Shown: positions 5,737-22,354 of the stretch, piece by piece
Layout of the letters: every line of letters begins with the position of its first letter
Position numbering within the stretch: the stretch's first letter is position 1
DNA from: an uncultured Porphyromonadaceae bacterium
GTDB taxonomy: Bacteria; Bacteroidota; Bacteroidia; Bacteroidales; Muribaculaceae
Assembly (NCBI GenBank): GCA_947175215.1
Contig: CAMWLR010000014.1
Coordinates: forward strand, 1 to 43,894
Length of the DNA stretch: 43,894 nucleotides
Reading direction: 5' to 3'
Made by a program: the position numbers and the translations under genes
The notes under the pieces: model-generated
Database searches by the model: none
What the model was told of the DNA's origin: nothing
What the model saw: only the letters and a program-made list of their open reading frames with translations

Positions 5737-5744
5737 CAAAATTA
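5737..5744 (-). promoter_or_regulatory. Possible -7 element for patatin gene
   Basis: TAATTTTG on the minus strand fits TAnnTTTG and is well placed before the patatin start, but I see no convincing TTTG about 19 nt upstream, so it is weak. Confidence 0.35.
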
Positions 5745-5802
5745 CAAATAAATCCCCGCATTACCATCCTTTGCCTCAAAAAATATGCTTAGCCTCATCA
5801 TT

Positions 5803-5836
5803 AATGAGTGCAGAAAGGGCTGCACGAGGGCTCATT
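5803..5836 (-). terminator. Possible terminator hairpin after rodA
   Basis: AATGAG pairs with CTCATT as an outer 6-bp stem, and TGCAG pairs with CTGCA as an inner stem around a 6-nt loop, with a 6-nt bulge on one side. It overlaps the rodA stop codon. A run of six T on the minus strand lies about 20 nt further on. It is plausible as the end of the purH-rodA operon but imperfect. Confidence 0.4.
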
Positions 5837-7301: not shown

Positions 7302-7325
7302 GTCAGTGTCTTTTTACTCCGCGTA

Positions 7326-9182
7326 TCAGTGTTTCTTAACTCCGCTGTATATGATGGTGTTTGACTCGAGCATACGTTCCTCGAGATATTTGCGTGCCGG
7401 CGAGATCTTCCCCGTCAGGTATTTCTCGATGACCAGTGAGCCGATCGGCACGCCGAATGTTGCTCCGAATCCGGCATTCTCAACGTAGACGCAGACGGCG
7501 ATTTTCGGGTCATGATATGGGGCGAATCCGATAAATGCCGAGTGGTCGCGTCCATGGGGGTTCTGTGCCGTACCTGTCTTGCCGCACACCTCGATGTCGG
7601 GGAGATTGGCCAGACGGCAGGTGCCGCCGGTGACGGCCATACGCATACCCTCGGCGATGTCGTCAAAATACTTAGCGTCGATAGTGGGGAAACGTTTCTC
7701 GAGATATTCGGGGGCGAGCAGCGTATCTTGTATCTCCTTGACAACATGCGGTGTGATAAACCAGCCGCGGTTGGCGACGGTGGCACACAGATTGGCGATC
7801 TGTAACGGCGTGGCCAAAATCTCACCCTGGCCGATTGAGACTGAGATAATGGTGTTGGCGCTCCAGCGCCCCTCGCCGTAGATCTTGTTATAGAATTTTT
7901 CGTTGGGGATAAATCCGCGTCCCTCATGAGGTAGATCGACACCGAGCTTATAGCCGTAACCTAATGAGACGAGATGTTTTTTCCAGACCTCAAAGGCGTT
8001 GGCTGATGAGCCGTACTTTGACCGTTTGTTGTCGACCATCGCTTTGAATCCCCAGCAGAAGTATGCGTTGCAAGATGTCTGCAAAGCAGGCTTGAGTGTG
8101 ATGGGCGATGCGTGGCCGTGACATCCGACTCTCAGACCACCGTTAATAAAACCTCGATAACAGGGATAGGGGGTGGCGAGGTTGACGATCCCTTCTTGCA
8201 GAAATATCAGCCCCTGTGAGGGCTTGAATGTAGATCCAGGAGGATATGCCCCTTGCAACGCACGGTCAAACAGCGGCTTGAGCGGGTCGTTTACCAGTTC
8301 TTTATAATTCTTACCTCGCTGACGGCCAATGAGGCGTGTGGGGTCATAGGTGGGTGACGACACCATAGCGAGAATCTCGCCCGTCGATGGCTCGATGGCT
8401 ACGACAGCACCGATCTTGTTTACCATCAGAGACTCGGCATATTGTTGCAACCCGATGTCGAGACTCAGCTTGAGGTTGCGCCCCGAGACGGGGGCGATAT
8501 CGTGAGATCCGTTGTCATAACGGCCGCGTATGCGCCCGCGGGCATCACGTATGAGTATCTCCTTACCCTTGACACCGCGCAGATGGCTGTCATAACTTTT
8601 CTCTATGCCGAGGTCGCCGCAATAATCACCGGGTTCATAATAGGGGTCGCGCTCAATGTCAGTCTGCGACACCTCGCGTATATTCCCCAGGATGTTGCCT
8701 GCCGTATGGTAATTATATTGACGCAGGATGCGCTTCTGTATAAAGAACCCCGGATAACGATAGAGCTTTTCCTGTAGACGACCGTAATCCTGAGCGGAGA
8801 GGTGGGTGATAAGTGTCTGGGGGGTATAGGATGAATAGTTGGGAGAACTCTTCATCGCCGCCAGACGGCTGCGGAATGTCTCGGGGGTTATCTGCAAGGT
8901 GTTGCAGAAGTCAATGGTGTCGAAGTCATGGACATCGCGCGGTATCATCATCACGTCATAGGCCGGCTGATTGAATACCACCAGAGAGTCATTGCGGTCA
9001 TATATCAGGCCACGCGAGGGGTAAACGGTCTTGCGCAGAAAGGCATTGTTGTCGGCATAATCCTTATACTTTGAGTCTGATATCTGCAAGCCAAACAATC
9101 TTATAAGGAATATGACAGCAATGACGACGATAAAACCGCCGATGACGTATTTTCGTTTTTCGAGTCTGTAATCTTTACGCAT
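7326..9182 (-). CDS. mrdA: Penicillin-binding protein 2 (transpeptidase)
   Basis: Class B PBP, the DD-transpeptidase that cross-links peptidoglycan during elongation as partner of RodA. It has one N-terminal membrane anchor (about residues 13-33), a PBP dimerisation/pedestal region, and a transpeptidase domain. The active-site motifs are complete: STFK with Ser317 and Lys320, SCN at 370-372, and KTG at 534-536. The 618-residue length is normal. It lies between mreD (35 nt gap) and rodA (24 nt gap), the usual order of the elongasome cluster. Confidence 0.96.
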   Translation of the reverse strand: MRKDYRLEKRKYVIGGFIVVIAVIFLIRLFGLQISDSKYKDYADNNAFLRKTVYPSRGLIYDRNDSLVVFNQPAYDVMMIPRDVHDFDTIDFCNTLQITPETFRSRLAAMKSSPNYSSYTPQTLITHLSAQDYGRLQEKLYRYPGFFIQKRILRQYNYHTAGNILGNIREVSQTDIERDPYYEPGDYCGDLGIEKSYDSHLRGVKGKEILIRDARGRIRGRYDNGSHDIAPVSGRNLKLSLDIGLQQYAESLMVNKIGAVVAIEPSTGEILAMVSSPTYDPTRLIGRQRGKNYKELVNDPLKPLFDRALQGAYPPGSTFKPSQGLIFLQEGIVNLATPYPCYRGFINGGLRVGCHGHASPITLKPALQTSCNAYFCWGFKAMVDNKRSKYGSSANAFEVWKKHLVSLGYGYKLGVDLPHEGRGFIPNEKFYNKIYGEGRWSANTIISVSIGQGEILATPLQIANLCATVANRGWFITPHVVKEIQDTLLAPEYLEKRFPTIDAKYFDDIAEGMRMAVTGGTCRLANLPDIEVCGKTGTAQNPHGRDHSAFIGFAPYHDPKIAVCVYVENAGFGATFGVPIGSLVIEKYLTGKISPARKYLEERMLESNTIIYSGVKKH

Positions 9183-9217
9183 AGTTGGAGGAGAGCGCGT
9201 TGGACGGTGCGACGTGG

Positions 9218-9727
9218 TCAGCGGCTCTTGGCCGTGAGAGAGTCAAATGACAGGATAATGATGAATGTCAGCAAGGTCGATGAGACAATCCTCAGCACCA
9301 TCAGCCCCCAGTTGTAGAATGTGAATGATTCGATCAGGAAGAATATCGCACAGTAAAATGCCACCATTGTCAGCAGATACTTCGTGTATGCCGCCGGCCC
9401 GAGGGTATGCAGTGACGGCTCGGGGTTGGTCATATCCTCTTCGCGCGGAAAATAGAGCCGCAGAAGAGGCAGGCGCATGACAGCAAGTACCGTGCATGCC
9501 AGAGCATTCATACCCTGGGTGTTAGAAAAGATGTCGACCATAAGGCCCAGGATGAAAGAGAATGTCATGGCCCAATTGACCGACAGGGTCACCGGCAGCT
9601 TTATGATGAAATATATAAACACCAGCGGCACGGCCACGTTAAAGAGACACAGATGATTAAAGACCACCACCTGGGCCACCACGAGCACAATAAAGAGCAG
9701 CAGGTATTTAAGTATCTCCTTAGTCAT
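9218..9727 (-). CDS. mreD: Rod shape-determining protein MreD
   Basis: A small (169-residue) integral membrane protein with about five hydrophobic spans; the first starts at residue 7 and the last (LRIVSSTLLTFIIILSF) lies near 145-161. Sequence alone is weakly conserved in this family, but position between mreC and PBP2 on the same strand, length and topology fit MreD of the elongasome. It begins 19 nt after mreC. Confidence 0.88.
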   Translation of the reverse strand: MTKEILKYLLLFIVLVVAQVVVFNHLCLFNVAVPLVFIYFIIKLPVTLSVNWAMTFSFILGLMVDIFSNTQGMNALACTVLAVMRLPLLRLYFPREEDMTNPEPSLHTLGPAAYTKYLLTMVAFYCAIFFLIESFTFYNWGLMVLRIVSSTLLTFIIILSFDSLTAKSR

Positions 9728-9746
9728 TTAAGCATTTATCGGGTTA

Positions 9747-10601
9747 TCAGTTATCTGATTTTGACGTGGCATCGTTTTCGACCGATCTGATCTCATCGAG
9801 ATCGGTGTTTGATATGATCTTGACTGTCGAGAGGGCGGTTAAGTCAGTCAGCAACTTGATCTTAAGGGTGAAGAAGTTGTCATCAGCGCCTCGTGCGGTG
9901 CCTGAGATGATTCCCACGGGCAGTCCCTCGGGGAAAACAGCCGAGAATCCCGAGGTGACAATCGTGTCACCCTCATGGAAGATGGTGTGTTTGGGTAGCT
10001 CCTCGAGTATGGCGCTTGTCGGGTCGTTGCCGTCCCAGACAAGTGACCCGAAGGTGTCAGAGCCTCTGAGCTTGCACGATAGTCTGAAGTTTGGGTTAAG
10101 CAACGAGATAATGCGCGCATAGTGATCAGAGACCACGTTGACCACACCGACAACACCATTCTGGTCCATCACCCCCATCTCGGGTCTGATGCCGTCGAGC
10201 CGTCCCTTGTTTATGGTGACATAATTATAGGGGCGTGAGATAGAATTGTTGATGACGGTGGCGATGATAAAGTCAAAGCGCCCTATTGAGTCGACCTGCC
10301 GGAGTGAATCCTGCAACTCATCTTCGCGGTAGCGGCGCACTTGCTCGCGCAATGTCAGCACCTCGGCCTGTAGTTCGGCTGTCTGCCGCTGCAGATCATC
10401 ATTGATGTCGCGCAGGCTGAAATATCCGGTGATGTTGCTTGAAATATCGTGCAGACCACCGGCTATCGCCCCGGCCGATGTCATGTAGACATGATGCTGG
10501 TATGGATTGCGGTTGAACAGCAATCCACACGATACCACGACATAGAACGCGAACAGAAACCACGAACTATATCTGAGCAGGAAATTCAGCAGGTTTCTCA
10601 A
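9747..10601 (-). CDS. mreC: Rod shape-determining protein MreC
   Basis: Bitopic inner-membrane protein: one membrane span at about 12-29, then a coiled coil at about 63-100 (LRDINDDLQRQTAELQAEV), then the periplasmic beta-domain pair with the conserved GVVGVVNVVSDHYARIISLL region. MreC scaffolds MreB filaments and PBP2/RodA. The length of 284 is typical. The C-terminal tail is acidic and polar. It starts 44 nt after mreB. Confidence 0.94.
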   Translation of the reverse strand: MRNLLNFLLRYSSWFLFAFYVVVSCGLLFNRNPYQHHVYMTSAGAIAGGLHDISSNITGYFSLRDINDDLQRQTAELQAEVLTLREQVRRYREDELQDSLRQVDSIGRFDFIIATVINNSISRPYNYVTINKGRLDGIRPEMGVMDQNGVVGVVNVVSDHYARIISLLNPNFRLSCKLRGSDTFGSLVWDGNDPTSAILEELPKHTIFHEGDTIVTSGFSAVFPEGLPVGIISGTARGADDNFFTLKIKLLTDLTALSTVKIISNTDLDEIRSVENDATSKSDN

Positions 10602-10645
10602 TTTCCGTCAGCCTGTTATACGATAAATTACCTTAAGCGATGTGT

Positions 10646-11671
10646 TTACTTGATGAGGAACGAGAAGTTCTGGAAGTTCTTAAGTGCCACACCCGTACCC
10701 TTGGCGACGGCCAGCAGGGGATCTTCAGCGACGTGGAACTGAATCCCGATCTTGTCGGTCAGACGTTTGTCAAGACCGCGTATGAGCGCACCACCGCCGG
10801 CCAGCCAGATACCGTTGCGCACGATGTCGGCATAGAGTTCTGGCGGAGTCTGCTCAAGAGCGCCGAGCACGGCACCCTCTATCTTTGAGATCGACTTCTC
10901 GATGCAGTGTGAGATCTCCTGATAAGATACGGGGATCTCCATAGGCAGGGCGGTCATCTGGTTAGGACCGTGCACGACGTAATCCTCGGGGGGATTCTCG
11001 AGTTCGGTCAGCGCCGAGCCGACATTCATCTTGATAAGCTCGGCGGTACGTTCGCCCACCTTGACGTTGTGGGCGCGACGCATATGATTCATAATATCCT
11101 CGGTGAGGTCATCACCGGCGATCTGTATAGATTTGTTAGACACGATGCCACCCAGCGAGATGACAGCAATTTCGGTCGTACCGCCACCTATATCTACGAT
11201 CATGTTACCCTCGGGGGCTTCGACATCCAGGCCGATACCGAGAGCTGCTGCCATAGGCTCGTAGATCATATATACTTCACGGCCGTTGGCGTGCTCAGAC
11301 GAGTCGCGCACGGCGCGGATCTCGACTTCGGTCGATCCTGACGGGATACCTACCACCATGCGGAGTGAGGGTGAAAACCAATTATTTTTAGACGAGGCCT
11401 TTTTAATAAGGCCACGTATCATCAGTTCGGCGGCGTTGAAGTCAGCGATCACACCCTTACGCAGGGGGCGCACTGTGCGGATACCTTCGGGCTCTTTACC
11501 ATACATCAGCTGAGCCTCTTTGCCGACGGCGATGAGTTTGTCTGTGCGGCGGTCGAGAGCGACGATAGAGGGTTCGTCGATCACGATCTTATCGTTATGG
11601 ATGATCACGGTGTTAGCCGTGCCCAGATCTATTGCAATCTCTTTTGTGAGAGAAAAGAATCTAAGTCCCAT
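10646..11671 (-). CDS. mreB: Actin-like cell-shape protein MreB
   Basis: Bacterial actin homologue that polymerises on the inner face of the membrane and directs lateral wall synthesis. The phosphate-1 loop DLGTANTVI (16-24) and phosphate-2 loop DIGGGTTEIAVISLGG are intact, as is the C-terminal WLAGGGALIRGLD. The N-terminus MGLRFFSL is amphipathic, consistent with membrane binding. Length 341 matches the family. It starts 22 nt after the purH stop, so purH and mreB probably share a transcript. Confidence 0.97.
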   Translation of the reverse strand: MGLRFFSLTKEIAIDLGTANTVIIHNDKIVIDEPSIVALDRRTDKLIAVGKEAQLMYGKEPEGIRTVRPLRKGVIADFNAAELMIRGLIKKASSKNNWFSPSLRMVVGIPSGSTEVEIRAVRDSSEHANGREVYMIYEPMAAALGIGLDVEAPEGNMIVDIGGGTTEIAVISLGGIVSNKSIQIAGDDLTEDIMNHMRRAHNVKVGERTAELIKMNVGSALTELENPPEDYVVHGPNQMTALPMEIPVSYQEISHCIEKSISKIEGAVLGALEQTPPELYADIVRNGIWLAGGGALIRGLDKRLTDKIGIQFHVAEDPLLAVAKGTGVALKNFQNFSFLIK

Positions 11672-11693
11672 AATTATTGAGGAGTTTATCTTG

Positions 11694-13226
11694 TCAATGT
11701 TTGAAGTGACGGAAACCGGTCATGACCATAGCCACGCCATTTTCGTCACAATATTTAATAGAGTCGTTGTCGCGGATAGAGCCGCCTGGCTGTATGACGG
11801 CGTCAACACCGGCGTTGTGGGCGATCTCGACACAATCTGCAAAGGGGAAGAATGCGTCTGATGCCATCACCGCACCATTGAGATTAAAGCCGAATGTGTG
11901 AGCCTTGTCGATAGCCTGACGCAGGGCGTCAACGCGTGATGTCTGACCCACGCCGGCAGCGCAGAGCTGACGGTTCTTGGCCAGGACAATGGCGTTGCTC
12001 TTGCAGTGCTTGACCAGCTTGTTGGCAAAGAGCAGGTCGGCCACCTGCGCGGGGTCGACAGCCTTGACTGTCACCTGACGCAGGTCTTCGGGGGTCTCAA
12101 TCTTGAGGTCGCGCTCCTGCACGAGAGCACCGTTGAGGATCGAGCGGAATTGACGTGTGGTCTCAAGCGGTTGTTTCTGCTTGAGTATAATGCGGTTTTT
12201 CTTCTGCTCGAGTGTGCCGAGAGCATCGGGTGTGTAAGAGGGGGCGATGATTACCTCAAAGAAGATCTTATTGATCTCCTCGGCCGCCTCGCCGTCGATC
12301 TCGCGATTAGCGATAAGTACACCGCCGAATGCCGAGACGGGGTCGCCGGCCAATGCGTCTTTCCAGGCATCGAGGATTGTGTCACGCGATGCGACACCAC
12401 AGGCGTTGTTGTGCTTGAGGATGGCGAATGTCGGGTCGGTAAACTCGCTCATGAGCGATGTTGCGGCGTCAATGTCGAGGAGGTTGTTATATGAGATCTC
12501 CTTGCCATGGATCTGCTCAAAGAGGTGATTGAAGTTGCCGAAGAAGTAACCCTTCTGATGGGGGTTCTCACCATAGCGCATTGTCTTCTCACCGTCGATA
12601 GCTACACGCAGGGCGGTGGGATGCTCGGCCAGCGAGTCAAAATAGCTGAAGATTGCCGAGTCATACTCAGATGACACGCCAAAGGCCTCTTTGGCAAAGA
12701 AAAGACGGTCGGCGAGTGTTGACTGTGCTTTACCCTCGCGCACGAGCATACGGCGCAGGGGCTCATACTGGGCTTTTGAGGCTACGATTACAACATCGTC
12801 ATAATTCTTGGCGGCAGCGCGGATGAGAGATATGCCGCCTATATCTATCTTCTCGATGATATCAGGCTGAGATGCGCCTGATGCTACGGTCTGGCTGAAA
12901 GGGTAGAGGTCGACGATTACCAGATCTATCGAGGGGATTTCATATTCGCGGGTCTGCTCCTGATCACCGGCATTGTCGCGGCGGTTGAGGATGCCGCCGA
13001 ACACTTTTGGGTGGAGGGTCTTGACACGGCCACCGAGAATTGAGGGGTAGCCGGTAAGGTCTTCGACAGCGTCACATTCATAACCGAGGCTTTTGATAAA
13101 ATCACGAGTACCGCCGGTTGAGATAAATTTTACGCCTGATTTGGCAAGCAGGCTGAGGATTTCGTCGAGGCCGTCTTTGTGAAAGACCGAGACCAGAGCA
13201 GTTTTAATTTCCTTGATGTCTGACAT
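11694..13226 (-). CDS. purH: Bifunctional AICAR transformylase / IMP cyclohydrolase
   Basis: Catalyses the last two steps of de novo IMP synthesis: formylation of AICAR by 10-formyl-THF, then ring closure. The N-terminal MGS-like cyclohydrolase domain is seen in STGGT (36-40) and the GGRVKTLHPKVFGGIL segment (65-80). The C-terminal transformylase domain has the Lys-His pair in KHNNACGVA (K271, H272), a slight variant of the common KHxNPCG. The 510-residue length is normal. It heads the elongasome gene cluster and has its own promoter-like -7 element at 13331-13338, giving a leader of about 95-100 nt with self-complementary sequence. Confidence 0.97.
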   Translation of the reverse strand: MSDIKEIKTALVSVFHKDGLDEILSLLAKSGVKFISTGGTRDFIKSLGYECDAVEDLTGYPSILGGRVKTLHPKVFGGILNRRDNAGDQEQTREYEIPSIDLVIVDLYPFSQTVASGASQPDIIEKIDIGGISLIRAAAKNYDDVVIVASKAQYEPLRRMLVREGKAQSTLADRLFFAKEAFGVSSEYDSAIFSYFDSLAEHPTALRVAIDGEKTMRYGENPHQKGYFFGNFNHLFEQIHGKEISYNNLLDIDAATSLMSEFTDPTFAILKHNNACGVASRDTILDAWKDALAGDPVSAFGGVLIANREIDGEAAEEINKIFFEVIIAPSYTPDALGTLEQKKNRIILKQKQPLETTRQFRSILNGALVQERDLKIETPEDLRQVTVKAVDPAQVADLLFANKLVKHCKSNAIVLAKNRQLCAAGVGQTSRVDALRQAIDKAHTFGFNLNGAVMASDAFFPFADCVEIAHNAGVDAVIQPGGSIRDNDSIKYCDENGVAMVMTGFRHFKH

Positions 13227-13411: not shown

Positions 13412-14416
13412 TTATCGTGGAGCGGAATTTGGCTTTAACGATACGACGCACAAATATATGGCGAATGTCAACACCGTTATGGCTGAGACAATAGCGTGAG
13501 GAACTCTCAGCAACATGGCCTTGATGTCAGAGTCGGTGCGGTAGATCGCTTTCATGTCATTTTGTCGCGGTAAGATATAGTGACAATAAGCCTTGAGTCG
13601 GTTGCCGGTCGAGTCTATGCAGAATATTTCCCAAAGCCATGAGATAATGCGTTTCATCGGTTTTGAATGTCGACCGAGCAGTATATGCTTGACTCTCTTG
13701 TAAAAACGGTTACGGTGTGTGCCGATAATAGTTTTAAGCCGGTGTCGGCTCACATCCATGTCGTTGCGGATAAGTTCGTTGCAACAGATCTGCATGATAC
13801 GGTACATGCCGTAACGTTTTGCCCTCTCAGTCAAGGAGAGAAATTCATCGGCAGAGAATGTCTCGGCTGTCAGTTGCAGGTCACGCAGCCATTTTCCCTC
13901 CTGAAAACGGTGGAAACAAGCGTGCTGTGACAGAAACAGCCATTCATCAATTTTGTCGAGTCGCGCCTCAGAGTCACCGGCAGGGATGCAACGACTGATG
14001 GCGTCCTCATTAAACCGTCCGCAGGTTTTCCTGAAGAACCGTTTCGTTACGAGGTCAAGATGTATGTCGATGTCCGTCTCAAGCGGCCCGCGGCCTAACA
14101 ATGCGATCTTGCGCTTGGCTGACAGGGCATCAGTGTCAGAGAGGTAGTTGAATTGACGGGTATATCCGGCCTTGATCAACCGATCGACAAACTCTGCAGC
14201 TTTAGAGGCAGGATAGACCAATATGTCGATATCACCGGCATCGCGATCGAGGTTGTCGCGGTATATTCCCTTGAGCAGCGACACACCTTTTAGCGGAACA
14301 ATGGTACATATTCCATGGGCCCGATGCTTTAGACCGTCATATTGCTCAATAACGAGCAGCGCTCTGGCGGCAGCAAACTCCTGACCGCCAATGTCGTTAT
14401 GTTGAGACCCGCTCAT
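13412..14416 (-). CDS. RiPP-associated nucleotidyltransferase (NTP_transf_5-like)
   Basis: A 334-residue protein with the nucleotidyltransferase core: LKG (42-44), Arg58, then GDIDILV (61-67) with the metal-binding Asp62/Asp64, and a third acidic segment IDIHLDL (116-122). A second helical part follows (HACFHRFQEGKWLRDLQ), as in family PF14907. A hydrophobic segment near 308-326 may anchor the C-terminus in the membrane. Homologues are known beside HPr-kinase-like genes in some lasso-peptide clusters, where they are thought to tailor the peptide; the actual reaction here is unknown. It overlaps the ABC transporter stop by 4 nt (ATGA), so it is translationally coupled and is the last gene of the RiPP operon. 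Confidence 0.85.
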   Translation of the reverse strand: MSGSQHNDIGGQEFAAARALLVIEQYDGLKHRAHGICTIVPLKGVSLLKGIYRDNLDRDAGDIDILVYPASKAAEFVDRLIKAGYTRQFNYLSDTDALSAKRKIALLGRGPLETDIDIHLDLVTKRFFRKTCGRFNEDAISRCIPAGDSEARLDKIDEWLFLSQHACFHRFQEGKWLRDLQLTAETFSADEFLSLTERAKRYGMYRIMQICCNELIRNDMDVSRHRLKTIIGTHRNRFYKRVKHILLGRHSKPMKRIISWLWEIFCIDSTGNRLKAYCHYILPRQNDMKAIYRTDSDIKAMLLRVPHAIVSAITVLTFAIYLCVVSLKPNSAPR

Positions 14417-16146
14417 ATCGGTTTGCGTGTTATTGTGCCGTTGGCGATGTAAAAAAGGTTGTCAGCCATATTGATAACTGCTGGGTCATGGCTGACACAG
14501 ATGGTGAGTATCGACCGGCAGTATTTTTTTATATAATTCATCATGGCGGCTGAGGTTTCGCCGTCAACTGCACTGGTCGCTTCATCCAACAGTATCACGT
14601 CAGGATTCTTTAGGATCGCGCGTATGAACGACATGCGCTGTTTCTCGCCGACCGACAGATTATGCCCGTCATCAGCAACATCTTTATATAAGTCGGCCTC
14701 ACATCCTAAGATATGCCCGAGATTAAACTCATCAGCCAACCTCAGAATATCCGACACAGAAACATCACGGCCGAATGTCAGATTGTCGTAAAAGTTCCCC
14801 TCAAACAAGAATGGTTCCTGCTCGACAATTGAGATGTGCCGGGCGACACTTTCGGACGTAAATCCGGCGCTGTCCTCGCCGGCCAATAAGAGTTTGCCGG
14901 TGACAGGTTTGATCGCCATTGATATTATGTCGAGACATGTGCTCTTTCCGGCTCCGCTCTCACCGGCTATAACGTTAATGCCATCTGTGTAGAAAACGGC
15001 AGAGCAATCGTGCAACACCTCGTTGCCGTCAGGATAAGCAAAAGAGATGTCTCGCATCTCGATGTGATCTATTTTCCACCTGTCCGGCCATTGTGAAAGC
15101 CCCCCGGTGGTATCCGCGTCGGGGTCAAATGCATCTGTGAGATGCTTGACCGAGCTCTCGGTGGCCGCTAACTGAGTATACCCGTTGATTATCTTTATGG
15201 CTTCGCTGCGTATAAACATTATTGCCAGAGGATAGGTCAGGAGGATTCTCCACCCGTTATCGCTCTTGCCGTAAACGACTATCACGATAAACGCCAGTAC
15301 ACCGAGATATGTAAGCAACTCGGTGGCGATACCTTGCAGGCTCGCGGCTTTGACCAGACGCTTGTTGAGTGCGGTGCTGTCATCTATCACATTATAAAGT
15401 TTTCCCGAGATAAGCCCCCGCGAGTCATAAAACCGCAGGACGCGGGCACCCTTGATGCGGTCTGAGAAAATCTGATACAGGTCGGCCATGCGGGAGTATA
15501 GCCGCCGTCGTGTCGTCTTTACTTTTTTACGCAGCAGCGCACAGCAATATACGACAGCGCCGACCAGCAGCAGTATCACGCATGACAGTTGCCATGACAG
15601 CCAGATCATCAATATCATAAAGGAGATGACGGTCAAGGGTGCCTGGATAAACGACCGGTAGACCATCGGTATGAGTCCCGTCAGCATCTCTGATTCTTTA
15701 GTAAACGCCATCATGTTGCGATGACCGGGACGTCTGGCATGCTCCTCACGGTCAGATAATTGCCTGTCCTGGTTAACCGAGAGATACGCTACATATCTGC
15801 GCTCGATTGAGCGTCTGACATCAGCCATGGCATACCCTTGGGCTAATCCCGTGATCTGCTTGATGATGGTTAGCGAGAGTATCAAGCCTAACAGGATGAT
15901 GATGTCGCGACCTGAGAGCAAGTCACCGATTGTGTCGGTTGTTGTTATCAGGGATTGGATATAATAAGTGATGGTGGCGGGGAAGAGTCCGATGATAACC
16001 TGTATGATCATCGGCAGAACGATACGCCAATGATTTCCCTTGGCCGCCCGCCATACATATCCGAGCAATTTAAGCTCAGATCTGACAGAACCTGATTTTG
16101 CGGGCTTATGCTTCTCTGAAATACTCATCGGCTTTGAAATACTCAT
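14413..16146 (-). CDS. ABC exporter (fused membrane and ATPase domains)
   Basis: About 577 residues: six-span transmembrane domain first, then an ATPase domain with Walker A GESGAGKST (395-403), signature LSVGEKQRM, Walker B VILLDEATSAVD and an H-loop in CVSHD. This is the half-transporter type that exports peptides or lipids as a dimer. No C39 peptidase domain is present at the N-terminus, so leader removal must be done elsewhere, plausibly by the B2-like protein of this operon. The open frame extends to 16254, deep inside the upstream radical SAM gene; I prefer ATG at 16146 (or the alternative at 16128, 18 bp later). Both ATGs lie in a tandem duplication that overlaps the end of the upstream gene. 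Confidence 0.92.
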   Translation of the reverse strand: MSISKPMSISEKHKPAKSGSVRSELKLLGYVWRAAKGNHWRIVLPMIIQVIIGLFPATITYYIQSLITTTDTIGDLLSGRDIIILLGLILSLTIIKQITGLAQGYAMADVRRSIERRYVAYLSVNQDRQLSDREEHARRPGHRNMMAFTKESEMLTGLIPMVYRSFIQAPLTVISFMILMIWLSWQLSCVILLLVGAVVYCCALLRKKVKTTRRRLYSRMADLYQIFSDRIKGARVLRFYDSRGLISGKLYNVIDDSTALNKRLVKAASLQGIATELLTYLGVLAFIVIVVYGKSDNGWRILLTYPLAIMFIRSEAIKIINGYTQLAATESSVKHLTDAFDPDADTTGGLSQWPDRWKIDHIEMRDISFAYPDGNEVLHDCSAVFYTDGINVIAGESGAGKSTCLDIISMAIKPVTGKLLLAGEDSAGFTSESVARHISIVEQEPFLFEGNFYDNLTFGRDVSVSDILRLADEFNLGHILGCEADLYKDVADDGHNLSVGEKQRMSFIRAILKNPDVILLDEATSAVDGETSAAMMNYIKKYCRSILTICVSHDPAVINMADNLFYIANGTITRKPI

Positions 16147-17152
16147 CGGCGGCGTTGAACAGATCGGGTGATTTCCCCGCGTCTTTGCGTTTAAGTTTCC
16201 CGCGGGTAATGTCAAGCGTGAAACTGTTATATCGGGGGAGTACGCAGTTATCACAGAATGAACTTGGCACGAGCCTCCCCATCGCGAGTCGCTTGCGATA
16301 CTGGCGTGAGGTCTTATTATTGACGATTTCAGAGAGGGAAGTGGTGGTCATATCGCCCACAATCATCTTACCGGCATAGTCAAGGTTGCAGAATCCGGCT
16401 TTACCGTCCCAAAGTATTGCCGGCAGCCCTTTTGCCTGAGTGCAATAAGAGTTGTGGCGGGTTATATGACCGGCAAGGTTACCGGTCTGAGGGAGAGCGG
16501 GCCAGGGCCATTCGCTCGAAAAGGTGATGTTGCTCAGCCGGGGATAATCATCAAACAGTTTGCGCGAGATACGTTCGATCTCCTCACCGGCATATCCGCC
16601 TGTGAGGATAATGTTGAGACCAAACACCCTTTTTGCGCCGGCAAACCGGCTGTCGATCATTGATAGAGATGCCATAGCCTTATCAAATTTCCCCGGGAAA
16701 CGGATATGCTCGTAATCTTGGGCAGAGTGCGCTTCGATAGAGAATGATATTCTTACTCCCTTGAGTTGTAATACCTTGTCGAGCAGATCCAAATCTATAC
16801 CATATCCGTTAGAGAAGATTGTAGGCGTGATTTTACGTGCCAGCAGTTTGCGGCAGAAATATTCGAGATCAGGGTTGAGAAACGGTTCGCCGCACATATG
16901 CAGGAAACATAGTTTCACCGGGATGTCGATATTATCCACGACACGGTCAAACACCTCACGGCTCATCATCCCGCGTGCACGTTTTCCGACGTTATTACCG
17001 TTGGGGCAGCAACGACATTTCAACGAGCAGATATTGGTCGTCTCGATGACGAGTTTGTCGGGGAAACGCCGTCTGTAACCTTGCATGATCAGCCCGTCAA
17101 TCAGCCATCGTTTGGCACGGTGATAATATCGTTTCAACTCAGAAGTCTTCAT
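16106..17152 (-). CDS. Radical SAM protein with short SPASM/Twitch-like C-terminus
   Basis: A 348-residue radical SAM enzyme. The SAM-binding [4Fe-4S] motif CxxxCxxC is C42, C46, C49 (CSLKCRCC), followed by the GEP motif (88-90). The C-terminal half has C237, C255, C300 and C303, a pattern that could hold one auxiliary cluster. This is fewer Cys than in the three other radical SAM proteins of the operon. The N-terminal 35 residues are strongly basic. It starts 5 nt after the preceding radical SAM gene and overlaps the ABC exporter start. It may modify the Tyr-rich peptide encoded at 19527-19667; substrate is inferred from context only. Confidence 0.88.
   Translation of the reverse strand: MKTSELKRYYHRAKRWLIDGLIMQGYRRRFPDKLVIETTNICSLKCRCCPNGNNVGKRARGMMSREVFDRVVDNIDIPVKLCFLHMCGEPFLNPDLEYFCRKLLARKITPTIFSNGYGIDLDLLDKVLQLKGVRISFSIEAHSAQDYEHIRFPGKFDKAMASLSMIDSRFAGAKRVFGLNIILTGGYAGEEIERISRKLFDDYPRLSNITFSSEWPWPALPQTGNLAGHITRHNSYCTQAKGLPAILWDGKAGFCNLDYAGKMIVGDMTTTSLSEIVNNKTSRQYRKRLAMGRLVPSSFCDNCVLPRYNSFTLDITRGKLKRKDAGKSPDLFNAADEYFKADEYFREA
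16117..16150. repeat. 18-bp-period tandem repeat at a gene junction
   Basis: The 16-nt sequence TGAAATACTCATCGGC occurs at 16117-16132 and again at 16135-16150. It is read in two frames: as (A)DEYF twice at the end of the radical SAM protein, and as MSISKP/MSISEK at the start of the ABC exporter, which duplicates the exporter's ATG. Confidence 0.9.
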
Positions 17153-17157
17153 GATGG

Positions 17158-18549
17158 TTACTGCTTGAAGTCTTCATCATGATTATATTTATAAGACAGG
17201 CAAGAGCCCTGGCATAAACCGCGCTCCTTGAGGAAACAGAGGTCGCACTCCTCCTTAAGGTTACGGTCGAGCAATGTCTTTAAGCCGGGTACAAACGCCG
17301 CCTCAAGGTCTTGCCATTTAATACTCGGGTCAAACGGCACACGCACATCGGTCAATCCCAGACAGGGGCTGAACGCCATATCTGTCGAGATCGAGAGATT
17401 ATTCATATACCCTGACTGATGTATGCCGCACAGTGCCATGTTGGCGTCGGCTCTCATCAGTTTTGTGGCGATATCATCGGGGAAGAGGCACATTGGCAGA
17501 GGTTTTGCAATGCCGAGGGCGATGCCAAGCTCTTCGGCATGGTTTACCATCCGGCAGATAGTAGGGATATAAACTTTGAAATGATCGGGAGAGGTAAAGC
17601 GATTACCCTTGTATCGTGAGGGTATTGTCAAAGCTATATTCAGGCGTTTGATCCCGGAATCTTTTGTCAGGTCAATCCATTTGAGTGCTTTATCTGCGTC
17701 GGGTGAAATAAGATTGACGCGCGCCGTCATGTCGATACGGTTCTCTTTACAGTAACGGATATTATCAAAGAATGTCCTGCGAAACCGGGCATCGGCAAGT
17801 GTCTCTGAGGTAAAATGAACATAGAGCCGTTTGACAATATCGGCCGTGAAACCCTTGATGCGCTGAATGTCAATGGTGCAGTTTGAGGCCAGATAGGTCG
17901 TCATGTCGTATCGGGCCACAAGGTCGAGAAATAACTCGAGAGATGAGTAGAGAAGCGGTTCGCCCCCGCATGGAGTCACGGTCTGACACCCTTGGCCGGC
18001 TGCCCAGCTGAAGATTTTTTCAAGGTCAGAGGGAGAAATCTCCTTTCTGACAAGATCGTGAGAGAAACAATATGGGCAGTGGAGGTTGCACTGACCGCAG
18101 ACAAACACCATCAGCTGTCGCAGTCGTGAGTTAATCGGGAATGACAGTCTCTCGACATTGTAGTTCTCCTCAAGATATCGTCGTATCCCGGGGAAAAACA
18201 GATAGAGATCTCTGAGCAGACGGTCAGGATCGGCATGAACGGGCAATGTCGCGCCAAGTATCCTCTTAAAGTCAGCATAGAGCTTACCCATCTCTGCAAA
18301 GACCTTATAATCGCCGTCACCTTTAGAATCCTCGCGAGGATGTCCTGACAGGTTTTCGACAGGGAGACCTGTGTTGAGAAACCAGAGTTCGCGTGCGGCT
18401 TTCTCGATAAGTTGCGGCTCATCGGCAGAGAGCCATGCAAAAAACAGGTCTCCGTGCCGGGCAAAGTTGCTCAGCACCTGATCAAATGACAGTTCTCTGA
18501 ACGGTGCCCCCGAGTCGTAAAGATTTATTATACTCTCTCTGTCAAGCAT
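17158..18549 (-). CDS. Radical SAM/SPASM protein with N-terminal helical extension
   Basis: A 463-residue protein. Residues 1-145 form an N-terminal extension of unknown fold, possibly a peptide-recognition region. The radical SAM motif is C154, C158, C161 (CNLHCPYC), followed by CGGEP (194-198). The C-terminal SPASM-type set is C374, C396, then C435-x2-C438-x7-C446-x3-C450, enough for two auxiliary [4Fe-4S] clusters. Such enzymes commonly make C-C, C-O or thioether links in peptides (PqqE, mycofactocin and sactipeptide enzymes). It overlaps the HPr-kinase-like gene by 8 nt. Which residue it acts on is unknown; the Tyr-rich peptide upstream is the obvious candidate. Confidence 0.92.
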   Translation of the reverse strand: MLDRESIINLYDSGAPFRELSFDQVLSNFARHGDLFFAWLSADEPQLIEKAARELWFLNTGLPVENLSGHPREDSKGDGDYKVFAEMGKLYADFKRILGATLPVHADPDRLLRDLYLFFPGIRRYLEENYNVERLSFPINSRLRQLMVFVCGQCNLHCPYCFSHDLVRKEISPSDLEKIFSWAAGQGCQTVTPCGGEPLLYSSLELFLDLVARYDMTTYLASNCTIDIQRIKGFTADIVKRLYVHFTSETLADARFRRTFFDNIRYCKENRIDMTARVNLISPDADKALKWIDLTKDSGIKRLNIALTIPSRYKGNRFTSPDHFKVYIPTICRMVNHAEELGIALGIAKPLPMCLFPDDIATKLMRADANMALCGIHQSGYMNNLSISTDMAFSPCLGLTDVRVPFDPSIKWQDLEAAFVPGLKTLLDRNLKEECDLCFLKERGLCQGSCLSYKYNHDEDFKQ

Positions 18550-19501
18550 CAGTGAAAATCTTTGTCGTCAGGGTCTTGCGATCGCCGAAATGGAAGTGAT
18601 AAAACCTGTTACCCACCGAGGCTGCCTCATATGTCGCTTGCCACAGAGCGGTGTCATATTGCATCCTGACGTTATTTGACGCTCTGATCAAGGCGACCAT
18701 ACAGTCGATAGCCTCTTGCGGCTCAAGACGGCTGACCCCTTTTGCACGTGAGATGTAATACATATTGCCGAGCGGCAGCGACAGGGGAGCGGCGCATCCG
18801 GTAGTTGCGACAACGTCTACCCAATCTTTCTCGCGGGCGCGGCGCGAAGGGAATAGTTTGGCATCCATCAACAGGCTGCCGACTTTGATCTCACCGTTAT
18901 CGGTATATAAAAAGGTGAGATCATCGCCCAAGTAATCAGCCCCCATTTTTACCAGATCGGTGCAAAGGGTCGACTTACCGTGACCGCTCTCGCCGATAAA
19001 CACATGAGCATAACCGTCGAGACCCACAGCCGCCGAGTGTAAAGAGTATCGGCCGTGCATCGACATGACAGTATGCAGCATTATGACCATTGCATCCCAT
19101 ATACGGGGTCTGATCCATCGACCGTCTTTCTCGCGCGAGAGCAATTTGCATTGCGTCAGCGACTTGCGGCGGTCATGAATCACCCAGATCTCGTCTGTAA
19201 GGGTGAGATAGTCAAGAGATTCAGAGGCAGAATGTACCCAGGTGACTTTATTCCTCGAGGTCGTAAGCCCCATGTAAGGCCCCTCCCATACAGAGACCGA
19301 GTCGGCAGGTGGCACTGTGGGACGTGTCGTCTGCATAAACTCGACGGTATGAGGAATCTGACCTGCGGTCTCCTCAACAGACCGCAGGTGATATTTTAGC
19401 ACACGTTTTAATTCCTGAGCCTCCTCGACGCAATCTGTCACCCATTTCACCGCCACACCGGCAATGCTTGTGATGACAACGTGTAACGGACGGTTATCCA
19501 T
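18542..19501 (-). CDS. HPr-kinase-like protein of RiPP operon
   Basis: A 319-residue protein with the P-loop GESGHGKST (170-178), an upstream LHSAAV segment (His155) and the LGDDLTFLY segment (Asp193/194). This is the core arrangement of HPr kinase/phosphorylase C-terminal domains. No HprK N-terminal domain is recognised; the first 130 residues are unassigned. Related kinases in lasso-peptide clusters (for example PadeK of paeninodin) phosphorylate the C-terminal Ser of the precursor, which gives a reasonable model here. The precursor gene lies 25 nt upstream. Alternatively it may be only a nucleotide-binding regulator. The start ATG at 19501 is the only good one close to the frame's beginning. 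Confidence 0.85.
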   Translation of the reverse strand: MDNRPLHVVITSIAGVAVKWVTDCVEEAQELKRVLKYHLRSVEETAGQIPHTVEFMQTTRPTVPPADSVSVWEGPYMGLTTSRNKVTWVHSASESLDYLTLTDEIWVIHDRRKSLTQCKLLSREKDGRWIRPRIWDAMVIMLHTVMSMHGRYSLHSAAVGLDGYAHVFIGESGHGKSTLCTDLVKMGADYLGDDLTFLYTDNGEIKVGSLLMDAKLFPSRRAREKDWVDVVATTGCAAPLSLPLGNMYYISRAKGVSRLEPQEAIDCMVALIRASNNVRMQYDTALWQATYEAASVGNRFYHFHFGDRKTLTTKIFTDA

Positions 19502-19526
19502 CAGTTATCGGGTTGGCTTACGGGAA

Positions 19527-19667
19527 TTAATGATAATAGTAGAGAGATGTGTAATAGAGCGAATAGAGAGAGGTGTAATGCAGTACGACAGTGTAAAGCG
19601 AACCTTGCACTACATTCTTTGACTCGTGACGGACGGTGAAGGGCTTTTCATACACTTTCTTATTCAT
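19527..19667 (-). CDS. Candidate RiPP precursor, 46-residue Tyr-rich peptide
   Basis: A short ORF in the only sizeable gap of the operon. It begins MNKKVYEKPF and contains 9 Tyr, no Cys, no Asp and two Glu (residues 7 and 15, both in the leader part). The leader has Y6-x-x-P9, like the YxxP motif recognised by PqqD/B1 domains in lasso leaders. The C-terminal half has four Ser-Leu-Tyr tripeptides (23-25, 33-35, 36-38, 41-43), two of them preceded by Thr, and ends in three Tyr and a His. The four SLY copies use different synonymous codons (TCG/TCT, CTT/CTC, TAC/TAT), which argues for a real coding sequence. The PqqD-like gene is 43 nt upstream and the HPr-kinase-like gene 25 nt downstream. Leader cleavage site is unknown. 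Confidence 0.85.
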   Translation of the reverse strand: MNKKVYEKPFTVRHESKNVVQGSLYTVVLHYTSLYSLYYTSLYYYH

Positions 19668-19710
19668 AGCGATATGATTTATTGGGGGTTAATATGATTC
19701 GTCAAGCAGA

Positions 19711-19965
19711 TTATGCGGTCTCGAGCAGATTCTCCTTGACCCAGTACTCGATCTGGTCATTGACATCGTTTAGGATTGACTCTTGAGATTGGTCATATTC
19801 CTCAGACAGTTTTAGGGCTATCTCTTGGGGAGAGAGACCGTCGGCAAGGAGATTCCAGACGGTGCTTGCCACGACATTCATCGTATAATATGTCCCGGTG
19901 GTGAGGTTGACAGCGACCACCTTATCCTGAAGTTTCTTCCAGGAGATGTTTTGGGCTATTTTCAT
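19711..19965 (-). CDS. PqqD-like peptide-recognition protein (RRE)
   Basis: An 84-residue stand-alone protein of the PqqD family (PF05402), with the typical pattern of two beta-strands (VVAVNLTTGTYYTMN, about 17-31), then helices (ASTVWNLLADGLSPQEIALKLSEEY) and a final helix. Such RiPP recognition elements bind the leader peptide and present the core to the modifying enzymes; in lasso systems they are called B1. The start is ATG at 19965, whose A is the last base of the upstream radical SAM stop (TGATG), indicating translational coupling; a TTG one codon earlier is less likely. The candidate precursor with its YxxP leader lies immediately downstream. Confidence 0.92.
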   Translation of the reverse strand: MKIAQNISWKKLQDKVVAVNLTTGTYYTMNVVASTVWNLLADGLSPQEIALKLSEEYDQSQESILNDVNDQIEYWVKENLLETA

Positions 19966-20927
19966 CAAGGTTGGATATTTAGGTTTTTAACATCAATCAG
20001 ATTCTTGGCCAGACATGCACCGTTACATTTGTCGGGTCGCATAAGATTGCAGGTAGCGCACTCGATTTTGCGGCCAAGCTGGCGGTAGGGAGCGAACTTC
20101 TCTTCAAACCAGTGCTTGGCCTCCTCATAGCTTGCAAATTCAGAGTAGTGACGCGACAAGATAGTGGCGAGTGACAGACAGTATATGACCTCGCCCAGCG
20201 GGGTTATGTCGAGACGCGAGCAACACCCCGAGGTGACTTTAGACCCGAGTTTCCATAACTCGCCGAGCTGGGCGTCAGTAAAGGCGCAAGTGGGTACACC
20301 GCATTCATAGTCGAGCGTGATGCCATATTCGGCGGCAGCCCGGGCTAATTCGACGGTTTTCTCCGCCACGATATAATATTCGTCATCATCAAGCGCATAG
20401 TTGGCTTGAGTTACTGTGGGTAAAACGAACCCTACCTTAATATTGCGTCTGAGATTAAAACGGTTGATCAGCTCTATAGCCCAAAGACTGTCTTTCTCAT
20501 GGGGCATAATATTGAATGTTATCGCTGCATTCTCACCCAGGTTACTCAGCGCCGACTCGATACGCTCGCGTTGCACGGCTGACCATTTTTCGGGCGGATT
20601 GACATTGACGACCCATGATATAGGCATAATACCGAGCTTTGAGGCATATACAGGGGCTTTCTCGGTGGCGAGATTTGAGAATATGGTGATGGGATAATCG
20701 CGTGAGAGCAGGGTGTCGACTATCCATTCAAATTTGGGATGCAAAGTCGGTTCGCCACCCATGAGATGTATGGGGCGGTTATAATTTGTGCGGGCGAGCC
20801 AGTCGAGGATTCCCAGGAATGTCTCGTCAGACATTGCGGCCTGTGGTACGGCGGGTACCATACGATCCATTCCGAAACAATAGGCGCATTTATAGTTGCA
20901 CCAGTTTGTAAGCATCAGGTTAGGCAT
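19965..20927 (-). CDS. Radical SAM/SPASM protein (second of a tandem pair)
   Basis: A 320-residue enzyme with the radical SAM motif almost at the N-terminus (C10, C14, C17 in CNYKCAYCF), MGGEP (57-60 core), and a SPASM-type C-terminus: C235/C236, C250, then C290-x2-C293-x7-C301-x3-C305. An extra pair C209/C214 in ECGVPTCAFT lies just before SPASM. Alignment by eye with the neighbour at 20930-21877 shows the same order of motifs and shared segments (RNIKVG/RDIRVG; CAFTDAQLGEL/CMFTTEQIGTL), so the two are paralogues. Its start is 2 nt after the upstream stop. It probably modifies the peptide encoded at 19527-19667. Confidence 0.93.
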   Translation of the reverse strand: MPNLMLTNWCNYKCAYCFGMDRMVPAVPQAAMSDETFLGILDWLARTNYNRPIHLMGGEPTLHPKFEWIVDTLLSRDYPITIFSNLATEKAPVYASKLGIMPISWVVNVNPPEKWSAVQRERIESALSNLGENAAITFNIMPHEKDSLWAIELINRFNLRRNIKVGFVLPTVTQANYALDDDEYYIVAEKTVELARAAAEYGITLDYECGVPTCAFTDAQLGELWKLGSKVTSGCCSRLDITPLGEVIYCLSLATILSRHYSEFASYEEAKHWFEEKFAPYRQLGRKIECATCNLMRPDKCNGACLAKNLIDVKNLNIQP

Positions 20928-20929
20928 GA

Positions 20930-21877
20930 TCAGACAGATTTAAAGCTTTTACAACCACCTTGGCAAAATCGTTTGAGATACATCTCGCAGTCGGCACATT
21001 CGTCAAAAATACCGACACCGGGGGTGAGTGACTTGGCACATTGCTTGTCAAGCGCCTCTTTGAGAGCGTTCATATCGGGATAATCCAGAGCATTTACCCG
21101 TCCTAATCTGAAGAGGGGGAAACAGTTCCAGGTCTGCAAGCCCGGGCCGACATCTACAGCCGCGCCGCATACAAAGTTGAGTGCCGTACCCTTGGCGAGT
21201 AACGTACCTATCTGCTCGGTTGTAAACATACAGGCTGTAAAACCGCAGTCCATCGACAACGATATCGACCTCTCGGCTGCCTTGCGGGCTGTCTCGACAA
21301 AGTAATCGCCTGCTTGCTTGTATTGCTCTTTGGGGATAAATTGATTGCCGCCATTATAGATGGGGAGGGCAATGCCCACACGTATGTCGCGGTTGAGGTG
21401 GTAACGGTCAATCAGATCAAACAGATATGTGGGGTCTGCCGACAGGTCAAAGATCGTGAAAGACAATGAGCAGGCAGGGCCGAAACGCTCAAGCAACTTT
21501 ACGAGATTAACATATCTGGCGTCTGTGTATGTGTCACGTGTGCCGACATTAACCACAAATGCGAGTTTCCCCAGGACGTCAGGGAGATTCATATCGGCAA
21601 GAGCCCGGGGCATGGGATTGGTGCCGGAGGTAAATATTTTGGCGAAAACCCCGCGTTGCAGCAACAGATTGATCAGTTCGTCAAAATGCGGATAGAGAAA
21701 CGGCTCTCCGCCGAGTAATCCGACACCGCCGACCTCGTGGCCATAGTGGTCGAGAAACTGCGTAATCTCGTCGAGAGTCAGTATCTCATCGATATTACTG
21801 CTGTCTTTAAGCACTTTGCGGGCGAAACAGAACGGGCATCCGCGATCGCATCTGTGCGTCAAGTATAGATTTGCCAT
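20930..21877 (-). CDS. Radical SAM/SPASM protein (first of a tandem pair)
   Basis: A 315-residue paralogue of the following gene. The radical SAM motif is C10, C14, C17 (CDRGCPFC), with LGGEP at 55-59. The C-terminal Cys set is C237, C252, C294-x2-C297-x7-C305-x3-C309, fitting two auxiliary [4Fe-4S] clusters. The extra C211/C216 (DCGFTACMFT) matches C209/C214 of the paralogue and could be a cluster ligand or a substrate-thiol site. It follows the B2-like gene after 13 nt. Reaction unknown; peptide modification is inferred from the operon. Confidence 0.93.
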   Translation of the reverse strand: MANLYLTHRCDRGCPFCFARKVLKDSSNIDEILTLDEITQFLDHYGHEVGGVGLLGGEPFLYPHFDELINLLLQRGVFAKIFTSGTNPMPRALADMNLPDVLGKLAFVVNVGTRDTYTDARYVNLVKLLERFGPACSLSFTIFDLSADPTYLFDLIDRYHLNRDIRVGIALPIYNGGNQFIPKEQYKQAGDYFVETARKAAERSISLSMDCGFTACMFTTEQIGTLLAKGTALNFVCGAAVDVGPGLQTWNCFPLFRLGRVNALDYPDMNALKEALDKQCAKSLTPGVGIFDECADCEMYLKRFCQGGCKSFKSV

Positions 21878-21890
21878 AGTGGATATCAGG

Positions 21891-22298
21891 TCAGGTTAAG
21901 TTTTCGTTGCTTTTACACTGTTTCATATCTATATCTATCCATTTCTGTAAGTTGCTTTTCTTGACAAGATAGCGATATTTGTCGGTCTCGCCTATGAGTG
22001 TGAGTCTGTCTGCTGCCGGTACGGCCGACGAGGCAGGCAGCGGCTTGCCGTTACGTGATAGCCATGCGTGACCGCGGTCACCTGTGCAATAAAACGTTAC
22101 TACGAGATTGACTTTATACTCTCCTGTCGGGTTGACTGTCGACAGCAACCCGTAAAGCAACTCTGCCTTGAGCAGACACGGTTGATCGACACGACGTCCG
22201 CAAATCAGGTTAATACAGGCCTTGGCCATTTTTCTCCATAGCGGTGTCGCATCGGCAGACATATATGTCACGGGCACAGGTCCACGGTGAGTGTTCAT
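21891..22298 (-). CDS. Lasso-B2-like transglutaminase-fold protein
   Basis: A 135-residue protein, first gene of the RiPP operon. The segment from PCLLKAELLYGLL (C41) to VNLVVTFYC and GHAWLSRNGKPL (His77) has the layout of the transglutaminase-like family PF13471, which includes the lasso leader peptidase B2: a Cys at the head of a helix, a beta-strand, then HAW plus NG. The third catalytic residue is not evident: the position about 12 residues after His, where B2 proteins carry Asp, reads PLPAS here. It may thus be a leader protease with a displaced Asp, or a non-catalytic relative. The ORF is not otherwise recognisable. A -7 promoter element lies 49 nt upstream of its ATG. Confidence 0.7.
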   Translation of the reverse strand: MNTHRGPVPVTYMSADATPLWRKMAKACINLICGRRVDQPCLLKAELLYGLLSTVNPTGEYKVNLVVTFYCTGDRGHAWLSRNGKPLPASSAVPAADRLTLIGETDKYRYLVKKSNLQKWIDIDMKQCKSNENLT

Positions 22299-22346: not shown

Positions 22347-22354
22347 CAAAGTTA
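22347..22354 (-). promoter_or_regulatory. -7 element for the RiPP operon
   Basis: TAACTTTG on the minus strand matches TAnnTTTG and sits about 50 nt before the first gene of the operon. No good -33 match at standard spacing is seen; a TTG lies only 12 nt upstream. Confidence 0.55.

Follow-up and report, generated by a model that had tools for sequence, protein, structure and literature searches.

Lasso peptides and linear phosphopeptides of the LPP kind (LPPs) are ribosomally synthesised and post-translationally modified peptides (RiPPs) whose gene clusters have helper genes in common with the locus studied here, a ten-gene operon with four radical S-adenosylmethionine (SAM) enzymes. The operon lies on the minus strand (13412..22298) of a 43,894-nucleotide stretch, positions 1 to 43,894 of contig CAMWLR010000014.1 from an uncultured Porphyromonadaceae bacterium (assembly GCA_947175215.1), which we refer to as the window. 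Lasso leaders carry a YxxPxL motif at -17 to -12, and the B1 protein assists both the kinase and B2 (PMC10368454). The kinase BsfK phosphorylates Ser3 of the lasso core (PMC10368454), and PsmK and PsmN together put a phospho-hexose on the lasso tail (PMC9266682). LPPs have been reported only from Bacillota, and their cores vary (Popov et al. 2026, PMC13381572). Their kinase LppK phosphorylates Ser3 of the core, deletion of lppN was without effect in its test, and they use an archaeal-type signal peptidase (SpI-type). The terms 'radical SAM' and 'rSAM' are absent from the main text on LPPs (PMC13381572).

We conclude, with a probability of roughly three in four, that the operon makes a RiPP on a lasso/LPP-type chassis in which the four radical SAM enzymes modify repeats of the core peptide. 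An earlier reading of the sequence alone, the first-pass annotation, had proposed one RiPP operon that has lasso-type accessory genes but lacks a cyclase, and the comparison of loci agrees.

A conserved but rare operon

In transcript order the genes encode a B2-like protein, rS1, rS2, a PqqD-like protein, the precursor, an HprK-like kinase, rS3, rS4, an ABC exporter and a nucleotidyltransferase (NTase), rS1 to rS4 being the radical SAM enzymes. The first-pass annotation described ten minus-strand open reading frames (ORFs) with gaps of 43 nt or less. Coordinates, strand and spacing were all verified, the intergenic gaps being 13, 2, -4, 43, 25, -8, 5, -149 and -4 nt. The -149 nt overlap reflects the longest-ORF start of the exporter, and a start at 16146 or 16128 reduces it to 41 or 23 nt. 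Its labels for the PqqD-like protein (PF05402), HPr-kinase-like protein (HprK-like profile), exporter (ABC exporter) and NTase (PF14907) also stood, as did its pair of paralogous radical SAM enzymes, with rS1 and rS2 about 27% identical across loci.

The operon was found at 14 distinct Bacteroidales loci (given L numbers below), the window among them. The precursor, PqqD-like protein, rS1, rS2, rS4, kinase and NTase were each present in all 14. The B2-like gene was present in 13, the exception (L037) beginning at a contig end. rS3 was likewise present in 13 and missing in L034, with no copy found elsewhere in that 84%-complete genome. The exporter was found in 11 and was missing in L031, L034 and L036. 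Gene order was constant apart from L036 and L038, where rS2 sits downstream. Trees of six genes had 7 to 10 of 11 splits in common with the concatenated tree. The flanks vary among loci by ORF sizes, and in the congener G022 clpB again adjoins the operon. A search for co-occurring homologues had been set beforehand as the check on the first-pass reading, and it found a neighbourhood conserved in 14 loci rather than scattered genes. The operon is thus real and conserved, and its carriers include some bacteria of gut type.

It is also rare. Among 297 genomes of the window's family, a search with the kinase returned 15 matches, of which five were strong (at E 7.1e-38 or better) and the other ten weak. 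The precursor was found in five of the 297 genomes, exactly those with the five strong kinase matches, and its profile matched the window's own genome at 3e-21. At E 1e-20, rS2 matched in 7 of 393 genomes of the order, of which two carry the operon (window and congener) and five a different cassette. In a phylum sample of 395 genomes rS2 matched only in the window's own genome, and the operon was carried by 2 of the 14 same-genus genomes shown. A peptide-pattern scan for rS2 relatives, using one genome per species, returned 13 loci titled Bacteroidales or its families, four of them duplicates of loci already in the set, plus one match in Clostridia. The latter (L043) was short, 33% identical and without the operon, and was excluded before counting.

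The ten weaker kinase matches (L020-L029) had a PqqD-like and/or ABC gene nearby in nine cases, and in one a 4.9-kb contig held the kinase only. When the ten loci were mapped, none was found to have rS1, rS2 or the precursor; they lack the operon's radical SAM genes and are possibly lasso or related RiPP clusters.

A tyrosine-repeat precursor peptide

The 46-residue Tyr-rich ORF is, as judged from its conservation, a genuine precursor. Its leader (codons 1-22, 19602..19667) reads YxKPxTxxHx5VQG up to a putative leader/core boundary, and its core (codons 23-46 and stop, 19527..19601) consists of an invariant Ser followed by LYxxx repeats, with 8 Tyr in 24 residues. The spacing of the leader motif YxKPxTxxHx5VQG/S was constant in all 14 loci, with Y6, K8, P9, T11, H14, V20, Q21, G22 and S23 invariant. 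The cores, counted from S23, span 15-30 residues and vary in sequence. A short precursor with a conserved leader and a variable core thus lies beside modifying enzymes at 14 of 14 loci, the arrangement expected of a RiPP.

The repeats are far from chance. The 14 cores are 38% Tyr and contain 50 LY pairs (mean 20 and maximum 30 after shuffling). Steps from one LY to the next were exactly five residues in 22 of 36 cases, against a mean of 0.7 and a maximum of 6 in 2000 shuffles. LYYTS, LYYTT and LYSTT are typical of the repeat units. The window core parses as S-LYTVV-LHYTS-LYS-LYYTS-LYYYH, a looser register than in L032, L035 and L041.

We compared the window with its congener. In the core 18 of 24 codons had changed, all silently, so that the two peptides were identical there, with no residue replaced. 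Silent-site divergence (pS) was 0.71-0.84 in every gene compared, near saturation, and 0.84 over the whole precursor gene. Strong purifying selection therefore acts on the precursor peptide, and an identical core despite near-saturated silent sites indicates that the product matters to its makers. Identity between the two loci was 93.5% for the precursor, 92% for rS2, 77% for rS1, 69% for the kinase and 48% for the NTase. The equal constraint on precursor and rS2 suggests, without proof, that rS2 acts on the precursor.

Composition also bears on the chemistry. Among 310 core residues there were no D, N, Q or C, and only 1 E, 5 K, 5 R and 3 W. The window core consists of S, L, Y, T, V and H only, with no Asp or Glu in 24 residues, and 13 of the 14 cores, the window's included, are acid-free. 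An ordinary lasso product is impossible for the window because its core offers no Asp or Glu for ring closure. A divergent lasso cluster, with its cyclase elsewhere or replaced, could still be imagined, since relatives of the operon's kinase, PqqD-like protein, NTase and exporter occur near PF13471 B2 genes (at 9, 10, 7 and 4, respectively, of 14 Bacteroidales loci with such genes, in one of which, L080, a PF00733 cyclase was verified). The leader would also suit a lasso system, with YxKP in 14 of 14 loci and a PqqD-like RiPP recognition element (RRE) predicted to bind it. Against this, the core composition, which leaves no macrolactam acceptor, already contradicts such a cluster. The first-pass annotation saw no asparagine-synthetase-like cyclase, and the only Asn_synthase matches in the 92%-complete window genome were TilS and GMP synthase (GuaA), with none in the operon. 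Nor, to our knowledge, do lasso clusters include radical SAM enzymes, and we regard the lasso explanation as extremely unlikely.

Several established radical SAM products were considered as well. A sacti- or ranthipeptide was rejected for want of a Cys donor in any of the 14 cores. Cross-links of the PqqE, streptide, ryptide, WgK and triceptide types were rejected because their partner residues are missing from the window core. For streptide, ryptide, WgK and the triceptide type these partners are Lys/Trp, Arg, or Asn/Asp/Lys/Arg/Gln. The PqqE cross-link joins Glu to Tyr (PMC8326336). The composition of the cores thus excludes lasso, sactionine and several named radical SAM cross-links, and that of the window core excludes lactams, thioethers and any link that requires Glu, Asp, Asn, Lys, Arg or Trp. 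Links from the Tyr ring to Leu, Thr or Ser, Tyr-Tyr links and epimerisation remain compatible with the sequence of the window core. Leu, Tyr, Thr, Ser, Val and His are the only residues that a modification could fall on, and so restricted a composition makes the peptide a clean system in which to study new radical chemistry. The chemistry of the product is unusually well constrained by its sequence, though not readable from it.

The repeated Leu-Tyr sites also invite a splicease explanation, in which the radical SAM enzymes would excise tyramine at LY sites and leave keto-beta-amino acids. Known spliceases require x-Tyr-Gly, and LYG occurs in only one of the 14 cores (L037). Tyramine excision by radical SAM enzymes is itself known from spliceotides (PMC8326336), but given this sequence requirement we consider it very unlikely here. 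Repeats in the core, together with the two most conserved radical SAM enzymes described below, point to repeated, core-directed radical chemistry.

Enzymes and proposed pathway

All four radical SAM enzymes matched PF04055, and SPASM was matched by Pfam in rS4 only. rS1 (20930..21877, 315 aa) and its paralogue rS2 (19965..20927, 320 aa) have CX3CX2C and eight more invariant Cys in a SPASM-like arrangement, in rS1 at all 14 loci. rS3 (17158..18549, 463 aa) likewise has eight further invariant Cys, and carries an N-terminal extension of about 145 residues with no assigned fold ahead of its rS1/rS2-like part. rS4 (16106..17152, 348 aa), a radical SAM/SPASM enzyme, has fewer. Profile comparisons grouped rS1 and rS2 with the C-terminal portion of rS3 (99.7-100%) and placed rS4 at a greater distance (93.8-98.2%). 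Mean pairwise identity across loci was 57% for rS1, 61% for rS2, 34% for the kinase and 36% for the NTase, making rS2 the most conserved enzyme of the operon. The best solved relative of rS2, 8vpo, aligned over residues 4-311, through the auxiliary cysteines. This structure belongs to the set against which RRE models were validated (PMC12710340).

For both rS1 and rS2, viperin was the top NCBIfam match and also the PADLOC match, and the operon includes kinase and NTase genes. Even so, it is extremely unlikely that the operon makes no RiPP and serves in nucleotide modification (viperin-like) or defence. The matches reached 31-40 bits, far short of the NCBIfam cut-off of 180, and did not extend beyond roughly the first 105 residues, further invariant cysteines are found in rS1 to rS3, and a conserved precursor peptide and PqqD-like protein are encoded in the operon.

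Relatives of these enzymes were also seen in other settings. A separate Bacteroidales cassette, in 5 of 393 genomes of the order, has an rS1-like radical SAM enzyme (31-34%) (L055 8582-11559, L056 9109-12060, L057 5356-9287, L058 4892-9943 and L059 4581-7586). Its second protein (282-307 aa) had no Pfam match in the one tested, its third (366-384 aa) was radical SAM/SPASM by Pfam in the one tested, and both of the loci tested for it had a family-9 glycosyltransferase close by. On plasmids of Candidatus Chlorohelix (L108 7339-13898) and Candidatus Thiodictyon (L109 6573-12650), distant rS1/rS2-type radical SAM genes lie beside PqqD-like genes, in the latter with YcaO and TfuA as well. The rS1/rS2 subfamily seems to serve other RiPP types too.

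The PqqD-like protein (19711..19968, 85 aa), a discrete RRE and predicted leader-binding chaperone, matched PF05402 at 1.5e-13, and its best NCBIfam matches, below cut-off, were two lasso PqqD models. The HprK-like kinase (18542..19501, 319 aa) matched PF07475 below cut-off, and its family profile matched solved HPr kinases at 1.4e-5. Its H155, P-loop K176, D193 and D194 do not vary among the 14 loci and correspond, by our mapping, to the His-Lys-Asp-Asp residues reported in lasso kinases (PMC9266682). The NTase (13412..14416, 334 aa) belongs to NTP_transf_5 (PF14907). The MsbA-like ABC exporter (14413..16146) could start at an ATG at 16146 or 16128, its longest ORF extending to 16254; no peptidase domain was matched in it.

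The B2-like protein (21891..22298, 135 aa) is a predicted leader peptidase of the cysteine type. The first-pass label of B2-like drew a mixed answer: no Pfam or NCBIfam match, PF13471 included, was found at E 0.1, but a profile-profile comparison did match PF13471. In an alignment to 14 PF13471 proteins of other Bacteroidales, Cys fell over Cys and His over His. Cys41 and His77 are invariant in 13 of 13 sequences. In an AlphaFold model (mean pLDDT 77.5) Cys41 is at a helix start and His77 just ahead of a strand. The hidden Markov model of the B2-like family also matched the PF13471 protein in two of the 14 Bacteroidales loci that encode one (E 1.5e-4 and 3.9e-4, searched among per-locus ORFs).

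Several observations weigh against a lasso/LPP-type chassis with core-directed radical SAM enzymes. The match of the B2-like protein to PF13471 is remote (hhalign probability 63%, E 7e-5; 0.1-0.7% for four other families and a reversed control), no third catalytic residue is clearly conserved among the 13 aligned sequences, and fold searches with the model gave no match above noise. The kinase scores under the curated cut-offs of its matched families. The pentad register is imperfect, with one of three LY steps in the window equal to five. The exporter is missing from three of the 14 loci and rS3 from one, so neither is universally required. The rS2 scan was the sole source of nine of the 14 loci, so that rS2 is there by construction; the other operon genes at those nine are not.

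In the proposed pathway the PqqD-like protein would bind the YxKP leader and present the precursor, as lasso and LPP RREs suggest. rS1 and rS2, with rS3 and rS4, would modify the LYxxx repeats, probably once per repeat. As the window core offers nothing but Ser, Leu, Tyr, Thr, Val and His, the likeliest chemistry would be epimerisation or a C-C or ether bond that joins a Tyr ring to a side chain next to it. The kinase would phosphorylate a hydroxyl, most plausibly that of the invariant junction Ser (S23), a natural candidate since LppK and BsfK target Ser3. The NTase would decorate the phosphate, both roles being modelled on PadeK, LppK and PsmK/PsmN. The B2-like peptidase would cut off the leader near VQG/S. 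By the spacing of lasso YxxPxL, cleavage would fall at G22/S23, where conservation ends, with VQ/GS or VQGS/ possible instead. The exporter would presumably carry the product out. More tentatively, rS1 to rS3 and rS4 might build a ladder of repeated Tyr-derived rings or D-residues of an as yet undescribed sort, with a phospho-sugar on the junction Ser, giving an exported Tyr-rich rod or membrane-active peptide of a new RiPP class. A role as a secreted competition or signalling peptide is a guess.

Outside the coding region, TAACTTTG (22347..22354, minus strand) begins 56 nt upstream of the first gene, and we take it to be a possible Bacteroidota -7 promoter box. Of the 13 loci that have the B2-like gene, 9, as a raw count, show TAnnTTTG boxes in the 200 nt ahead of the first gene. 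From their translations alone, the neighbouring genes are presumably purH downstream and a divergent clpB on the other side.

Comparison with known systems

Like the kinase-bearing lasso clusters of paeninodin, pseudomycoidin and Bsf, the operon encodes a B1-like RRE, a B2-like peptidase, an HprK-like kinase and an exporter. Some such clusters also have the NTase, and their leaders too have an aromatic-x-x-Pro motif. The operon differs from them in lacking an Asn-synthetase cyclase, in its acid-free core and in its four radical SAM enzymes. Trees of the kinase, NTase, PqqD-like protein and exporter, sampling 6 to 12 lasso-type and SynChlorMet versions per gene, gave operon clades supported at 0.94-1.0 and apart from those versions; 'lasso-type' here denotes a locus with a PF13471 peptidase, the cyclase being verified in L080 only. 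Such separation gives the system the look of an ancient, independent lineage, not of something spliced together recently. The first-pass idea of a new hybrid type therefore calls for qualification: none of the described families compared fits, but its four helper genes do not look like a recent assembly.

LPPs likewise have a discrete RRE, an HprK-like kinase, an NTP transferase, an MsbA-like exporter and no cyclase (PMC13381572), a set found in the operon, with the exporter, in 11 of 14 loci. The leaders correspond in YxxP, in a His at the eighth position past the Tyr and in a Ser close to the junction, at +17 in the operon and +18 in LPPs by eye. The LPP motif YxxPxVLxHQxIxFETxxS, as given in passages of that paper, is absent, only the Y, P and H positions being common by eye. 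The operon further differs in its B2-like Cys peptidase, its radical SAM enzymes and its Tyr-repeat core. It could be supposed, from the common helper set and leader, that an LPP-like pathway makes a linear phosphopeptide here and that the radical SAM enzymes are minor tailoring only. No SpI-type peptidase is found among the ten genes, however, rS1, rS2 and rS4 are present in 14 of 14 loci, rS1 and rS2 are far more conserved than kinase and NTase, and the conserved repeat core indicates that the main reaction is directed at the core. We therefore judge this unlikely.

The SynChlorMet cassette (Scm; NCBIfam TIGR04248-TIGR04251), found in 4 of 247 phylum-sample genomes, all of one genus, combines a PqqD-like protein, a radical SAM/SPASM pair and the HprK-like ScmC with a PF14907 NTase, an MsbA-like exporter and a small peptide with a [W/Y]xKP leader. 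At L105, which passes all four Scm cut-offs, the cassette (4745-12346) comprises the NTase, ScmD, ScmE, ScmF, a Cys-rich peptide with a WxKP leader (no NCBIfam match at 1e-6), ScmC, an S26-peptidase-like protein and the exporter. By operon family models and an S26 match, L104 (4158-14828) has the same content, with two precursor copies and a second ScmF. The cassette looks like an LPP-type RiPP chassis with radical SAM enzymes and, of the architectures found, is the nearest to the window's. It differs in having two radical SAM kinds (ScmE and ScmF), an S26 signal-peptidase-like protein in place of B2, and a Cys-rich peptide with a WxKP leader. The window's best scores against ScmC, ScmD, ScmE and ScmF were 15.9, 13.5, 27.2 and 24.3 bits, against cut-offs of 125, 100, 400 and 400. 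A literature search found no paper on this cassette.

Likenesses of other kinds are looser. Partly as a matter of general background, PQQ and mycofactocin resemble the operon. They too pair a PqqD-type RRE with a radical SAM/SPASM enzyme and have Tyr in the substrate (PMC8326336). The window core, by contrast, has no Glu or terminal Val-Tyr, and kinase, NTase, B2-like protein and exporter are added. The radical SAM enzyme TvgB acts on TVGG repeats to give the poly-cyclopropylglycine TVG peptide (PMC9062424), a precedent for repeated action on a short-repeat core, as proposed here. Its target is valine, and passages of that paper describe no lasso-type helpers.

Our literature search, by title and abstract over open-licence papers without supplements, showed no description of the operon or of a Leu-Tyr repeat RiPP among the matches listed, and no passage seen of a survey of RiPPs in Bacteroidales (PMC10352776) matches its gene set. 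As far as found, the operon is an undescribed Bacteroidales RiPP family on a known chassis. LPPs, without radical SAM enzymes, and Scm are its closest relatives; neither was named in the first-pass annotation and neither fits, as the first-pass failure to match any named RiPP class had indicated. We suggest that the helper set of RRE, peptidase, kinase, NTase and exporter is a portable chassis for differing core chemistry, which carries a lactam in one system, a linear phosphopeptide in another, a Cys-rich radical SAM peptide in a third, and here a Cys-free Tyr-repeat peptide.

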